A DNA stretch of 64,000 bases, taken from positions 62,001 to 126,000 of the forward strand of contig NZ_SMGG01000005.1 in assembly GCF_004339245.1 (NCBI RefSeq), in the 5' to 3' direction. This document shows positions 5,460 to 10,710 of the stretch, piece by piece. Source of the DNA: Seleniivibrio woodruffii (GTDB taxonomy: Bacteria; Chrysiogenota; Deferribacteres; Deferribacterales; Geovibrionaceae). Each line of letters opens with the position of its first letter. The stretch's first letter is position 1. The translations under genes and the position numbers were made by a program. The notes under the pieces are model-generated. The model saw only the letters and a list, made by a program, of their open reading frames with translations. It ran no database searches and had not been told where the DNA came from.

Positions 5460-6879
5460 GAGGCTGGCAAATTTTCGAGAACTGAGCGCAGAGCTTGAGA
5501 ACTGTTTCCAGATTGCCGGTTCACCCGATGATGCCGACATCATCATAACCGACAATACGGATTTCATCAGGGAGAACAAGCTAAATATCATCATATCCGA
5601 ACTTACGCCCGAAAATCATATAAGCATTAATCCAAAGATCCCAACGGCTTGCATGCTGAAGGACATTCAGTTGGCTGTCAAAACGTACTCCATATCCCCC
5701 AGAATAGACCGCATCAGCTTTCTGCAGGAGCAGAACGCCCTGCTGTCTGAGGCGAACAAGGGACTGGTGGAACTTTACAACCTGATAGACAACAAAAACC
5801 ACCAGATCGAGTTTCTGAAGAACAAACTGGAGAACATCATAAACTCAGCAGGAGAGAGTATTGTAGAGCTGAACGAAGAACTCTCCATCACCTATGCCAA
5901 CCTGAAATTCTCCGACACAACAGGCTACGGCAGAAACAACTCTGTGGGCAAAAACTTTTTCAACATGGTGCACCCGCAGGACAGCGACAGCTTTAAGAAC
6001 TCCCTCGCTCTGGCGGCATCGGAAAAAACAGCCAACCTCCAGATGCGCCTCAGAGTCGATAACGGGGCATTCATAACCATCAATGCATACGTCACGATGG
6101 TAAAAAATACCCTGCCCCATTACGAGATAATATTTGAAGATATCAGCAAGAAACTGCTTATCGAACAGCATATGAAAAAACTGGAGGAGAAGGCCATCGT
6201 CGCCGGATTCTCAAGGCACCTCTCCCACAACATCCTGAACGCCCTTACGGTTGCCGCAGGCTTTCTGCGCAAACTCCGCACGGAATCCGCCCTGAACGAA
6301 CAGCAGGAGCAGAAATGGAACGTTGTGGAGCATAAATGCAGGCTTATCGAAGAGATAGTCACAGGATACAACGATTACACCAACGCAATATCAATGCGAC
6401 CGGATGAGGATTTCGACATCTCGGAGTTTTTGAAGGCGGCGTTCATCGAGATTCGGGACAAGAGCTTTTCGAAGAACTTTTCAGCCTTCCTCTACAACTT
6501 TTTAGATCAGTACACCATGACCGCCGAGTTCGGCGAGACCCGACCACGAATAGTTCCCGGCAGCCGCATGTTTCTAAAAATGGCCGCCTGCTACATCATA
6601 AAAGATTCCATCCGCTTCTTCGACGAATATGTTCCGCTGAAATTCCATATTTCGGCAGAGGACATAAACGGTAAATTCACCATCAACATACGGCTCCACG
6701 ATGTCGACGTTGACACAAATATAATCAATACCATGCTCCAGCCATGGAACCATCAGGTTCTCTCCCAGAGCTTCGACTACTGGGGCATTGTCATATCGAA
6801 CGTTATAGTGGAAAAACACGGCGGCAGCATGCACCTGACCAAGGATGCGGAAGGATTGAGCTTTATCATCGAGTTCTAA
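5440..6879 (+). CDS. PAS-domain sensor protein with degenerate histidine-kinase module
   Basis: This 479-residue protein begins at a TTG inside the end of glnD. Its N-terminus (to about 90) looks like a worn-down receiver or flavodoxin-like fold. A coiled-coil segment (95-135) and a PAS domain (about 138-240) follow. An H-box-like segment, FSRHLSHNILNALTVAAGF (about 255-275), contains a candidate phosphorylated His. The C-terminal ATPase region keeps a G2-like end (WGIVISNVIVEKHGG) but lacks the Asn residues of the N-box and the DxGxG of the G1 box. It may therefore be a pseudokinase or scaffold. The overlap with glnD suggests a role in nitrogen signalling, but that is inference. The downstream start at residue 72 is possible but would remove the whole N-terminal domain. 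Confidence 0.7.
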   Translation: MKAAIYKRLANFRELSAELENCFQIAGSPDDADIIITDNTDFIRENKLNIIISELTPENHISINPKIPTACMLKDIQLAVKTYSISPRIDRISFLQEQNALLSEANKGLVELYNLIDNKNHQIEFLKNKLENIINSAGESIVELNEELSITYANLKFSDTTGYGRNNSVGKNFFNMVHPQDSDSFKNSLALAASEKTANLQMRLRVDNGAFITINAYVTMVKNTLPHYEIIFEDISKKLLIEQHMKKLEEKAIVAGFSRHLSHNILNALTVAAGFLRKLRTESALNEQQEQKWNVVEHKCRLIEEIVTGYNDYTNAISMRPDEDFDISEFLKAAFIEIRDKSFSKNFSAFLYNFLDQYTMTAEFGETRPRIVPGSRMFLKMAACYIIKDSIRFFDEYVPLKFHISAEDINGKFTINIRLHDVDVDTNIINTMLQPWNHQVLSQSFDYWGIVISNVIVEKHGGSMHLTKDAEGLSFIIEF

Positions 6880-6950: not shown

Positions 6951-7706
6951 TTAACAGTTGTCTTTCGAAACAGCAGGCGCACGCAGAAGCACACTCTTCT
7001 GATGCTTTTTCCTCACTTTCGTATTGAGAGCCTCAACAATAAGCGAGAAGCTGATTGCGAAATACAGATATCCTTTGGGGATGTGGAACTGCAGACCCTC
7101 GCCCACCAGGCTCATACCTATGAGCATGAGGAAGCTGAGAGCAAGCATCTTGAAAGTGGGGTGTTTTTCGATAAATTCCGCAATGCGTTTGCTGGTGAGC
7201 AGCATAACGAGGACGGATATGATGATAACAGCCACCATCATTGAAACGTATTGAACCATACCCACGGCGGTTATGACCGAGTCCACAGAGAACACAAGGT
7301 CGAGCATGAGTATCTGGAAAATGATGCCGGCAACGTTAGCCGTAATACTGACCTCTTTTTCCTGTGAACTGCAATCCTCCACAGAGTGGTGGATCTCCAT
7401 TGTACTTTTTGCGATAAGGAAAAGACCACCCGCAACAAGGATTATGTCTTTCCATGATATAGCTTTTTCAAAAGCGGTAAACACAGGTTCCGTAAGGCTT
7501 ATCACCCACGAAATACCCATCACAAGCAGAATACGCATTATCATCGCAAGGGATATACCCAGCTTGCGCACTTTTTCCCTTTTTTCCAGAGGGAGTTTGT
7601 TTGTCAGAACGCTGATGAAGATGATGTTGTCGATACCAAGAACGATTTCAAGGAGCAGAAGAACCGCAAACGCGAACCATTGAGAAGGATCGGCAAGCCA
7701 TTCCAT
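6951..7706 (-). CDS. TerC-family integral membrane protein
   Basis: This 251-residue multi-pass membrane protein matches the TerC/Alx family. It has the ELVLGIDN-type first helix (LLLEIVLGIDNIIFIS, about residues 17-32) and the conserved LVFSVDSVITAVGM segment about 110 residues later; both acidic residues are intact. About seven hydrophobic segments can be counted. Members are linked to tellurite resistance and manganese export, or to loading metals onto secreted enzymes; the substrate here is unknown. It stands alone, convergent with the kinase gene upstream in the window. Confidence 0.88.
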   Translation of the reverse strand: MEWLADPSQWFAFAVLLLLEIVLGIDNIIFISVLTNKLPLEKREKVRKLGISLAMIMRILLVMGISWVISLTEPVFTAFEKAISWKDIILVAGGLFLIAKSTMEIHHSVEDCSSQEKEVSITANVAGIIFQILMLDLVFSVDSVITAVGMVQYVSMMVAVIIISVLVMLLTSKRIAEFIEKHPTFKMLALSFLMLIGMSLVGEGLQFHIPKGYLYFAISFSLIVEALNTKVRKKHQKSVLLRAPAVSKDNC

Positions 7707-7952
7707 ATAGTTTTCACCTCAGTGTAGTTTTGTGGAGCGGATTATACATGATTCCACGCATAAATCCACAGGAACTAATTATGGAGAGATTATGGAGAAA
7801 AAAGTTCAGTTGGGAAATAATAGGTAGTTACACTAACTGTCATAGCAAATATATCAAATTATATAGCAATATTTTCCCATATAAATGGCAAATAATTTGC
7901 TTCTATATACATAATATAATTTTTAGTTTATAATATGGCATGGAGTTTATAA
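7707..7952. other. AT-rich intergenic region ahead of the peptidase island
   Basis: The 246-bp gap is far more AT-rich than the flanking genes and continues the composition of the next two genes. It has several TATAAT-like strings near 7900-7935 but no -35 box at proper spacing that I would defend. No short gene with a ribosome-binding site was found. Confidence 0.4.
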
Positions 7953-8510
7953 ATGAATAATATGGCAAGAGAAGCAATTGGTAATCTAACAACCTATTTA
8001 TTAGATTACTACTACAATGGAAAAATTAGCTTTCCTCTTAATATTGAAGAAATGATAATCAATAAACTTCAAGGAAGAATTGAACCTGATGCAACATTGG
8101 ATATGTTTATAGATGCCAAGATTGTTAAATCATCAAGCAATAATAATCACAAGTTCACCATATTCATAAACCCAAACTTACCGCAGACAAGGAAAAACTT
8201 TACACTAGCTCATGAATTAGGGCACCTATTTCTCCATATGGGTTTTATGATAGATAACGCAAAGTGGGAAGCAGCCCCAGAATATATAGATGGTGCGTTT
8301 GCAAGAAATCAGTATGACACTGGTGAAAATGAAAATCAGGCTCATGAATTTGCTGGTTCATTACTAATGCCAGCTGAACAGTATAAACAGTTTGTTAGAG
8401 ACAATGCTATAAATAACCAAATTGATGTTCAAGGTATTGCTAATTACTTTGGTGTGTCATACGATGCCGCATTAGTAAGAGGAAAATGGCTAGGAGTTTT
8501 TAATTGGTAA
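7953..8510 (+). CDS. ImmA/IrrE-family metallo-endopeptidase
   Basis: The 185-residue protein is a stand-alone zinc peptidase. HELGH (residues 87-91) gives two zinc ligands and the catalytic Glu. The downstream ENQAHEFAGSLLMP motif supplies the third ligand (Glu127), as in ImmA of ICEBs1 and IrrE/PprI. In those systems the peptidase cleaves a repressor to switch on a mobile element or stress response. No helix-turn-helix domain is fused and no XRE gene is adjacent, so the substrate is unknown; the overlapping partner gene is the obvious candidate. GGAG lies 7 nt before the ATG. Codon use is AT-rich, unlike the neighbours, suggesting horizontal transfer. Confidence 0.88.
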   Translation: MNNMAREAIGNLTTYLLDYYYNGKISFPLNIEEMIINKLQGRIEPDATLDMFIDAKIVKSSSNNNHKFTIFINPNLPQTRKNFTLAHELGHLFLHMGFMIDNAKWEAAPEYIDGAFARNQYDTGENENQAHEFAGSLLMPAEQYKQFVRDNAINNQIDVQGIANYFGVSYDAALVRGKWLGVFNW

Positions 8511-9835
8511 ATAATACGAGTTTCAATCCGCCAGATACAAGTTTTCTTGAAACATCTGCTAATGAAGGAACATTATTTTTTCTATCTTTTGATTTGGTAA
8601 ACTCAACTGAGTATAAAAATAGGTTCGCACAAGGATGGGTTAATAAAATCACTGAATTCTATTCTGGCTGCATAAACGGAGTTTCTAAACAGTTAGCAGA
8701 GAATTCTTGGCGTGAATGGAAAAAAAATGGTGACGAAGTCCTATTTTATTTCAAAATAGAATCCGATTTTGACCTTTACAAAACCATTCCTAAAATAGCT
8801 CAAATACTAAAAGAAATTATATCCATGGTTCAAAAAGGTGATGGAGCAGGCATCTTAAGCGTTAAAGCAACAATTTGGTCCGCTTTTGTTACAACAAAAA
8901 AAGAATATGTTGACAACTCAAATTTAGCTATCATTGACAAGAACACTGAAAACATGGATTTTATTGGACCAGATATAGATTTTGGATTTAGAATAGCAAA
9001 AGAAAATGCGCCAGGGATTATATGTATTGATCCTAAAATTTTGGCAATGTTTGAAGATATTCCAGCAACAGTTGGATTTCATGTTGTCGATTTCGTACAG
9101 GTCAAGGGGGTTTGGAATGGTAGGTATGTTCCTGTAGTTTGGTATCATGAAGATATTAAAACTCCTCAAAAAATATTTGAATTTGATGAATCAAAAAGAA
9201 ACCACCTTGTCAAAACACTTTTTGAAACTGTCTTGAATTCTACTCAAGTTAGCATGAAACAAGTTATAAAAGACGTCAACATTAAGACTAAACTTGATAA
9301 AATTTCAAATAATCTGCAAAAATTTGAAATCCCTGGTTATAAAGACAATAGCAATATAAGAAACGTTGCTATTGATAGAATTTCTGAAACTCATATTGTA
9401 GCTATTCTTTTCAATAAAGAATTGAATAAAGTTTTCTGTGCATTAAGAGCCAACGTAAAACCAAATTTTCCTAATCAATGGGAATTTGGTTGTACTCAGC
9501 TTATCGCTGGTAATCTTACAGTTACTGAACAATTGAAACAAGCATATAAAGATGAATTTAATTTAAATATAACTAGTTTTTTTGGCGACACTGAACACCC
9601 GTATGTCGTTGACAACTATAAATTTATAGATAGTACAACAAAAAGGTGGATTCCTGGTTTCCGCTACACAGGTATCGCAGAAGGGGATCCTTCTTTTAAC
9701 CCAGCAAAACATTCAAAGTCAGAATGGATTCTTTTATCTGATATTGATACAATAGCACCTGTAACTGCAGTACCCAATTTCCATGATGGCATCAAAAAAG
9801 CACATCAATTATTGAGCAAAAGTGTCATTTCTTAA
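8504..9835 (+). CDS. Fusion protein: class III nucleotidyl-cyclase-like domain plus Nudix-like domain
   Basis: I do not recognise this 443-residue protein as a named family. Residues about 22-210 resemble a class III nucleotide cyclase homology domain: Asp30 with the following ST (FDLVNST), a GDE turn (Gly76-Asp77-Glu78) before a beta strand, and DIDFGFR (157-163), which would place Arg163 near the catalytic Arg but has Asp where Asn is usual. A helical linker (about 220-282) leads to a Nudix-like fold (about 283-443). Its box region (GCTQLIAG to KDEFNLNI) keeps only part of GX5EX7REUXEEXGU, so hydrolase activity is doubtful. It starts at TTG with AGGAG 7 nt upstream and overlaps the peptidase gene by 7 bp. 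The pair is AT-rich and probably transferred. A signalling or defence role is a guess. Confidence 0.55.
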   Translation: MVNNTSFNPPDTSFLETSANEGTLFFLSFDLVNSTEYKNRFAQGWVNKITEFYSGCINGVSKQLAENSWREWKKNGDEVLFYFKIESDFDLYKTIPKIAQILKEIISMVQKGDGAGILSVKATIWSAFVTTKKEYVDNSNLAIIDKNTENMDFIGPDIDFGFRIAKENAPGIICIDPKILAMFEDIPATVGFHVVDFVQVKGVWNGRYVPVVWYHEDIKTPQKIFEFDESKRNHLVKTLFETVLNSTQVSMKQVIKDVNIKTKLDKISNNLQKFEIPGYKDNSNIRNVAIDRISETHIVAILFNKELNKVFCALRANVKPNFPNQWEFGCTQLIAGNLTVTEQLKQAYKDEFNLNITSFFGDTEHPYVVDNYKFIDSTTKRWIPGFRYTGIAEGDPSFNPAKHSKSEWILLSDIDTIAPVTAVPNFHDGIKKAHQLLSKSVIS

Positions 9836-9890
9836 TCATTCTTACTCTCACCAAAACTGGCATTTCAAGACTGACGAGAAAAAAAATAAC

Positions 9891-9955
9891 GAGCATACGT
9901 ATAAGTTTGTGAGCAGTTCCGAGCGAGAACTGACGCCGTAATGCGCCGCATATCA
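9891..9955 (+). repeat. Diverged copy of the palindromic repeat seen at 21.7-22.1 kb
   Basis: This stretch shares GAGCATACG, TGTGAGCAGTT, and CTGACGC-GTAATGCG-CGCATA in the same order with the right half of the 123-bp units near 22 kb. It lies just after the AT-rich island, between its last gene and the sdhB terminator. The left half is much more diverged or absent. Confidence 0.6.
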
Positions 9956-9965
9956 GTGCCGAAAT

Positions 9966-10000
9966 AAAAAAGGCGGAGGTTAGATGCCTCCGCCTTTTTA
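9966..10000. terminator. Bidirectional intrinsic terminator after sdhB
   Basis: A perfect stem (GGCGGAGG pairing with CCTCCGCC, 7-nt loop) is flanked by A and T runs on both sides. It can end leftward transcription from the sdh operon and rightward transcription from the peptidase island. Confidence 0.9.
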
Positions 10001-10002
10001 CT

Positions 10003-10710
10003 TTATACCTGCTGATCCAGCAGCATCTTCCTGATGTTCATTATCGCTTCTGTGGGGTTCAGCTCTTTCGGGCATGCCTCAACACAGTTGTAGATAGTGT
10101 GACATCTCCAGACGCCGTGTTTGTCGTTCAGGATAGGCAGACGCTCTTCCGCACCTTCGTCTCTTGAGTCGACAATATATCTCCATGCACGCAGAGCTGC
10201 GTTGGGTCCGAGATATTTTTTGTCTGACCAGAAAGAGGGGCAAGAGGATGAGCAGCATCCGCAAAGGATACACTCATACAGTCCGTCCAGTTTCTTTCTG
10301 TCTTCCGGTGACTGATAAATTTCTTTATCAGGGTTCGGAGACTTTCTGATGAGGTAGGGTTTAACAGTTATGAACTTGTTGAAGAAGTCATCGACATCGA
10401 CAACAAGGTCTCTCATAACGTTCATACCGGGCAGGGGCTGAACAACGATGTGGTCAGCACCGAGATCCTCAACTTTTGTCATGCAAGAGAGCATGTTAAC
10501 GCCGTTAACGTTGAGACCGTCAGAACCGCATACGCCTTCTCTGCAAGAGCGGCGGTATGTCAGTGTGGGATCCTGCTCCCATTTGATCTGGTTAAGAGCA
10601 TCCAGCATAAGGTAGCCGGGTCTTCTCAGCTCAACCTTATATGTCTGGTAGTAAGGCTCTTTATCCTTATCAGGGTCGTATCTGAATATTTCAAATGTAA
10701 CTGTATTCAT
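10003..10710 (-). CDS. sdhB: Succinate dehydrogenase iron-sulfur subunit
   Basis: The 235-residue SdhB carries the three Fe-S clusters that pass electrons from FAD to quinone. The [2Fe-2S] site is SCREGVCGSD plus a later Cys in MLSCMTK. The [4Fe-4S] and [3Fe-4S] sites use CILCGCCSSSCP and CHTIYNCVEACPKELNP. All are intact and match the Escherichia coli type. It is last in a sdhCDAB operon read leftward, 15 bp after sdhA, and is followed at once by a strong terminator. A good GGGGAGAAC ribosome site precedes the ATG. Confidence 0.96.
   Translation of the reverse strand: MNTVTFEIFRYDPDKDKEPYYQTYKVELRRPGYLMLDALNQIKWEQDPTLTYRRSCREGVCGSDGLNVNGVNMLSCMTKVEDLGADHIVVQPLPGMNVMRDLVVDVDDFFNKFITVKPYLIRKSPNPDKEIYQSPEDRKKLDGLYECILCGCCSSSCPSFWSDKKYLGPNAALRAWRYIVDSRDEGAEERLPILNDKHGVWRCHTIYNCVEACPKELNPTEAIMNIRKMLLDQQV

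Follow-up and report, generated by a model that had tools for sequence, protein, structure and literature searches.

A CapP-like protease gene paired with a putative adenylate-type cyclase gene carrying a degenerate Nudix domain in Seleniivibrio woodruffii

The closest described relatives of the gene pair reported here are found among systems governed by proteases and by nucleotide signals. The metalloproteases CapP and PprI are activated by single-stranded DNA (PMC10904395; PMC10233336), and ImmA proteins cut ImmR repressors in mobile elements (PMC10233336). Characterised PycCs, the cyclases of Pycsar, have an aromatic residue two positions before the first metal-binding aspartate (in three of them F60, F100 and, by inference, Y50), and further pyrimidine-selecting residues lie around the second (PMC11224242). 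How nucleotide-signal immune cyclases are activated is an open question, and in the pair described below gene order ties a protease with ssDNA-activated relatives to a cyclase, across at least nine phyla.

The pair lies in a 64,000-nt stretch of the Seleniivibrio woodruffii genome, referred to throughout as the window. The features of the locus are as follows.

7720..9950, no strand: AT-rich insert between terC and sdhB, delimited by composition and congener comparison
7953..8510, plus strand: ImmA/IrrE (Peptidase_M78) metalloprotease gene, 185 aa, ATG start
8211..8225, plus strand: HELGH zinc-binding motif, protease residues 87-91, with H87, E88 and H91 invariant in 49 relatives
8331..8333, plus strand: third zinc ligand of the protease, E127, invariant in 49 relatives
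8492..8496, plus strand: AGGAG, probable ribosome-binding site of the cyclase gene within the 3' end of the protease gene, read from the sequence
8504..9835, plus strand: cyclase-Nudix fusion gene, 443 aa, TTG start
8561..9157, plus strand: class III nucleotidyl cyclase domain, residues 20-218, from Foldseek, residue invariance and profile alignment
9158..9355, plus strand: helical linker (about residues 219-273) and low-confidence stretch (residues 274-292, pLDDT <50)
9356..9829, plus strand: degenerate Nudix-fold domain, residues 285-442, without RExxEE, from the model, Foldseek and Nudix-box alignment

Both reading frames are intact and share 7 nt (8504-8510), and a Shine-Dalgarno-like GGAG (7942-7945, read from the sequence) precedes the ATG of the protease gene. 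The GC content of the protease and cyclase genes is 34.1% and 32.5%, respectively, against 49.5% for the window, and their stretch has the lowest GC among all 1880-bp segments of the window (mean 0.495, sd 0.037, minimum 0.330). The insert as a whole spans 2.2 kb with 32.6% GC. A promoter and terminator scan of the locus returned matches at chance level, and the repeats surrounding the insert were uninformative.

The flanking genes terC and sdhB were recovered in four congeners. In one of them (G002) they are 0.22 kb apart, which represents an empty site, and in the other three the spot is filled with other cargo, named here by eye: a RhuM-like ORF in G001, a HigBA-like toxin-antitoxin pair and another ORF in G003, and a further HigBA-like pair plus a small multidrug-resistance-type transporter with a TetR-like regulator in G004. 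Within the host genus, the terC-sdhB intergenic region (window 7706-10003) is thus a hotspot for insertions. The protease-cyclase pair was not found in the other searched genomes of the genus, family and order of the host. Since it is absent from these kin and the site is empty or differently occupied in the congeners, the pair is recent cargo of a small hotspot, and the two-gene insert is a recent, horizontal acquisition.

The product of the first gene matched Pfam PF06114 (E 9.7e-20; 71.1 bits against a cut-off of 22) and the PADLOC model capP (E 2.5e-24). Its structure model has a mean pLDDT of 92.1, and the best match in the PDB was CapP (7t5t, E 5.1e-7), followed by IrrE/PprI structures that include the ssDNA complex 8sln. 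The protein is shorter than CapP and PprI. Neither the Pfam search nor the structure model gave evidence of a cyclic-nucleotide-binding domain within its 185 residues.

The second gene product had no match in Pfam, NCBIfam or PADLOC, and PF00211 matched neither this protein nor eight of its relatives. It did match PHROG 18024 (E 3.2e-33) and PHROG 6174 (E 2.6e-30), both families of unknown function. An HMM search of PDB sequences gave only chance matches to 14-3-3 proteins, so structure comparison was needed. The model (mean pLDDT 86.8, built with 75 aligned relatives) had class III cyclases as its best PDB structural matches: the cyclase domain aligned to CyaC (2bw7, E 1.7e-9, TM by target 0.78) and to 1ybu (TM by target length 0.85). 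The marks of such a cyclase are present, namely D30, G76-D77-E78 and D157-I-D-F-G-F-R163, and invariance across 108-113 relatives extends over S28, D30, G76-D77-E78, D159, G161-F162-R163 and G202. The motif assigns D30 and D77 as metal ligands. The canonical transition-state Asn is replaced by the invariant D159, and the Arg of that pair is the invariant R163, at a spacing of 4; because D159 stands in for the Asn, cyclase activity cannot be taken for granted. K73 precedes D77 by four residues and D152 precedes D159 by seven; from established knowledge of adenylyl cyclases, we take these positions to be those of the class III base-selecting pair. This mapping was aided by a profile alignment with the PF00211 cyclase of the host. 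The same alignment placed the Asn/Arg motif; its score is weak (probability 0.3) and it was used for placement only. The base-selecting pair is K/D in 88 of 108 relatives and R/E in 14. Judged by these residues, the pocket reads as adenylate-type with an unusual transition-state residue.

The C-terminal domain aligned to the Nudix fold of 1nfs in the PDB (E 2.7e-7) and to many Nudix proteins of a viral structure library. Several relatives also matched the MutT/Nudix and IPP isomerase models of NCBIfam, with E-values down to 2.7e-7. The catalytic Nudix box GX5EX7REUXEEXGU is absent from the window protein, and in nearly all of the 31 Nudix-type relatives, the window copy included, RExxEE is replaced by x-Y-x-x-D-F. 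Our best reading is that this dead Nudix domain acts as a sensor or regulator of the cyclase. From the model, the linker and low-confidence stretch that separate the two domains may be a regulatory cleavage site. In Chakrabartyella piscis (L037, 7887-8741 and a downstream ORF), the Nudix domain is found in a separate downstream frame, the product of a split gene or a frameshift.

An earlier note on this DNA, made from its letters alone, had described overlapping genes of atypical composition, an intact HELGH peptidase, and a partner joining class III cyclase-like marks (Asp30/GDE/DIDFGFR) to a degenerate Nudix-like fold. The gene overlap and low GC, the PF06114 match with its four invariant zinc-site residues, the invariance of D30, D77, D159 and R163 together with the Foldseek match to 2bw7, and the Nudix fold recovered from both structure libraries with its lost RExxEE all agree with that description. 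The note had named the failure to predict a cyclase or Nudix fold as fatal to its reading, and structure prediction gave both folds.

To assess the conservation of the pair we used an alignment-based pattern scan for the cyclase, which recovered 145 relatives from GTDB genomes, of which 80 were kept, and 54 from IMG/VR; a scan of genome contigs with the single cyclase sequence had recovered none. In 82 of the 108 distinct cyclase loci that are readable with the standard code, the gene immediately upstream, in the same orientation, encodes an ImmA protease; it is at most a few hundred bases away and usually overlaps the cyclase gene. This adjacency was not selected by the search, since the cyclase alone was the query. 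The records of known phylum span nine phyla and many further contigs are unassigned, so that the pair occurs in at least nine. It is also carried by the Clostridioides difficile phages phiC2 and phiCD27, the Leptospira phage LE1, Leptospira plasmids and a Mycolicibacterium plasmid. The pairing is therefore real and old, and the conserved adjacency that the earlier note had proposed looking for does exist.

Most of the loci lacking the protease belong to one Phenylobacterium/Sphingomonadaceae clade and its relatives, in which the cyclase active site is intact. This branch (L049, L051, L052, L055-L059, L061, L062, L066, L068, L071, L078, L085 and L008) displays conserved neighbours of its own, namely phosphatase, transporter and sensor genes, with PP2C, STAS or HAMP nearby, and probably represents ordinary chromosomal signalling. 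Meanwhile, the Mycoplasmataceae relatives (L045 7971-8813, L050 295-1140 and L053 8001-8813) are open only if TGA is read as Trp, and no adjoining ImmA gene was found under that reading.

The neighbourhood of the relatives provided insights into a possible output of the pair. A small membrane protein is encoded directly downstream of it in sixteen Nudix-type loci. Pfam PycTM matched 14 of the 15 downstream membrane proteins tested, and the PycTM/2TM effector models of PADLOC matched the tested ones with E-values of 1e-17 to 1e-32. A family HMM revealed further PycTM-like genes, which precede the protease gene in five loci and are convergent with the pair in phiC2/phiCD27 and one more locus; PADLOC confirmed the six of these that were tested (E 1e-13 to 1e-36). 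Overall, the ten third genes tested gave PycTM/2TM profile E-values of 1e-13 to 1e-36. Every one of the 23 PycTM-like matches in 1.52 Mb of loci, in three gene orders, adjoins the pair, with no match away from it, which makes the link between PycTM and the protease-cyclase pair firm. They occur in 23 of 32 Nudix-type rows and in 0 of 46 short-type rows, which lack the Nudix domain (Fisher p 8e-13, a test that ignores relatedness). The association with the Nudix domain as such comes largely from one Clostridia clade and is only suggestive, because the tree offers four independent contrasts and the phylogeny-aware pair test over them is not significant (p 0.25).

The window copy differs from these relatives. 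No ORF for a PycTM or PycTIR effector adjoins it, and searches of the rest of the host genome with Pfam PycTM and the family alignment gave nothing over the cut-off, only sub-threshold scraps. Hence the "stand-alone" module imagined in the earlier note fits the window copy and does not fit its Nudix-type branch; its suggestion of a tie to nucleotide-signal defence is strengthened by the effector genes beside the 23 relatives. In comparison with the window pair, phiC2 adds a convergent gene, phiC2p40 (orf36 of phiCD27; 5474-5992 of loci L003/L004, minus strand), which is annotated as hypothetical and resembles PycTM/2TM effectors; its IMG/VR copy (L096) matched PADLOC PycTM with an E-value of 2.9e-31. 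A gene annotated as AbiF is also found nearby in phiC2. In a Treponema locus (L042, after 3669), a P-loop NTPase, KAP-like as judged by eye, stands directly 3' of the pair in place of PycTM, and is a possible alternative effector.

Among known systems, Pycsar shares with this family the class III cyclase fold with two metal-binding aspartates and the PycTM/2TM effector gene. The ImmA protease and the dead Nudix domain set it apart, as neither is described for Pycsar in PMC11224242. Moreover, the aromatic position of the PycCs is occupied here by the invariant S28, K73/D152 look adenylate-like, and the PADLOC cyclase models, whichever PycC models are among them, matched none of 78 family members. 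Going by its sequence, the pair is not classed as Pycsar, lacking the pyrimidine-selecting residues, a cyclase profile match and, in the window, an effector. The protease and cyclase may nonetheless work in a Pycsar-like manner.

The CapH-CapP arrangement of CBASS is similar in that CapP is the nearest match of the protease in both PADLOC profile and fold, and in that the protease gene precedes a nucleotide-signal gene. It differs in protease length (185 aa here, 278 residues in the CapP chain), and the window encodes neither a CapH HTH repressor nor a CD-NTase, with no conserved repressor family near the relatives. The pair is not CBASS CapH-CapP, because CapH and the CD-NTase are absent. ImmR-ImmA and DdrO-IrrE/PprI involve the same HExxH metalloprotease family; here there is no repressor partner and the conserved partner is a cyclase. 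The antitoxin RmrA of RosmerTA likewise has an ImmA-type peptidase domain, but its models include an extra N-terminal part (the match begins at about 170-206 of the profile) that this protease does not have. We rejected the RosmerTA and PDC-M69 identities for the protease, as those PADLOC matches reflect the shared ImmA domain only. The 135-position model of the PADLOC candidate PDC-S07 matched the Nudix part of 27 of the 78 relatives, with the window protein below threshold; PDC-S07 is a single-domain candidate whose model spans neither cyclase nor protease. None of the family and defence libraries searched (Pfam, NCBIfam, PADLOC) names the cyclase family, and in open-access papers we found no description of a protease combined with a cyclase-Nudix protein; an earlier description is possible. 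This agrees with the earlier note, whose author knew of no named system with such a pairing.

Based on these findings, we tentatively propose that a CapP-like protease gates an alarm-nucleotide cyclase. The protease, being of the CapP/PprI type, would probably be the sensor switch, turned on by infection or DNA damage. Its substrate would most likely be the cyclase, because the cyclase is its sole constant partner and no repressor gene is conserved; cleavage or activation of the partner by the peptidase had also been suggested in the earlier note. The cut would lift the inhibition that the C-terminal part of the cyclase imposes on it. The cyclic mononucleotide then made would, judging from the cyclase residues, most likely be cAMP. 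This signal would, in the majority of Nudix-type relatives, drive the PycTM/2TM membrane effector, leading to abortive infection. Because no PycTM effector stands beside the pair in the window genome, the output there would be a host receptor, or would have been lost. We hold this explanation as possible, at somewhat less than even confidence. In its favour are the invariant active sites, the conserved pairing, both folds, CapP as top match, the PycTM linkage and the lack of a conserved repressor. Against it stand the effectorless window copy and short-type relatives, the reliance of the Nudix-PycTM link on one clade, the D159 change, and the clade that retains the cyclase but no protease. A broader claim, which we consider rather unlikely, is that these loci form a class of nucleotide-signal immunity of their own. 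A protease of the CapP/PprI type would directly and proteolytically activate an adenylate-type class III cyclase restrained by a dead-Nudix sensor, with PycTM in some lineages, and the class would have gone unrecognised in LE1, phiC2 and phiCD27.

Since the window and all 46 short-type relatives have no effector gene, the output of the pair may be a different one. The order of events could be reversed, with the cyclase as sensor and its cyclic nucleotide, or direct contact, activating a protease that cuts a phage or host protein and is itself the effector of two-gene loci. Such loci are the majority and need an output of their own, and the protease gene always comes first with an invariant active site. 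We nevertheless regard this order as unlikely: the protease has no evident domain for reading a cyclic nucleotide, PycTM in 23 loci suggests that a membrane effector reads the signal, and the protease-less clade retains an intact cyclase.

The presence of the pair on the temperate phages phiC2, phiCD27 and LE1 and on phage-like Leptospira plasmids, a CI-like gene near it in LE1, and the cleavage of ImmR by ImmA in mobile elements (PMC10233336) would suit a switch of lysis and lysogeny or of a mobile element. The protease would then be an anti-repressor, as in ICEBs1 ImmA-ImmR, tuned by the cyclase according to the nutrient state of the host. Against this, the surroundings of the pair showed no conserved HTH repressor gene (of 102 flanking proteins, only 5 had HTH_3), and no cI-like ImmR adjoins the ImmA gene in the window or in a conserved way near relatives. 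Many copies, that of the window among them, sit on chromosomes without adjoining phage genes, and the PycTM association would be left unexplained, all of which makes such a switch improbable.

Improbable to a like degree is that the window pair is an inert remnant of a three-gene system that arrived without PycTM or lost it. The lack of a clear PycTM gene beside the pair or in the host genome is consistent with this, as is its absence from the searched kin, which marks it as recent and possibly neutral cargo of the hotspot; but both frames and all catalytic residues are intact, and effectorless pairs are common and conserved elsewhere. Ordinary cAMP signalling with the protease as a chance neighbour, for which the adenylate-type K73/D152 and the signalling genes around the protease-less clade could be cited, is largely refuted and most improbable, as overlapping genes adjacent in 82 of 108 loci and at least nine phyla cannot be chance and the distribution is sporadic and mobile.

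If protease gating of the cyclase is correct, it would widen Pycsar-like immunity to a cyclase family missed by present tools, give a likely role to the long-known gene pairs of LE1 and phiC2, and offer a context for the Nudix-like candidate PDC-S07. The gene pair itself has been in the databases since the LE1 and phiC2 records; what appears to be new is the PycTM/2TM third gene of the Nudix branch. Orf2-Orf1 of LE1 and p42-p41 of phiC2 are members of this same protease-cyclase family, and their records assign them no function; the annotators of phiC2 had already remarked on the likeness to ORF1/ORF2 of LE1. The LE1 pair (L187, AF261714, 527-2242) shares its deposited 5.3-kb fragment with a ParA-like partition gene.
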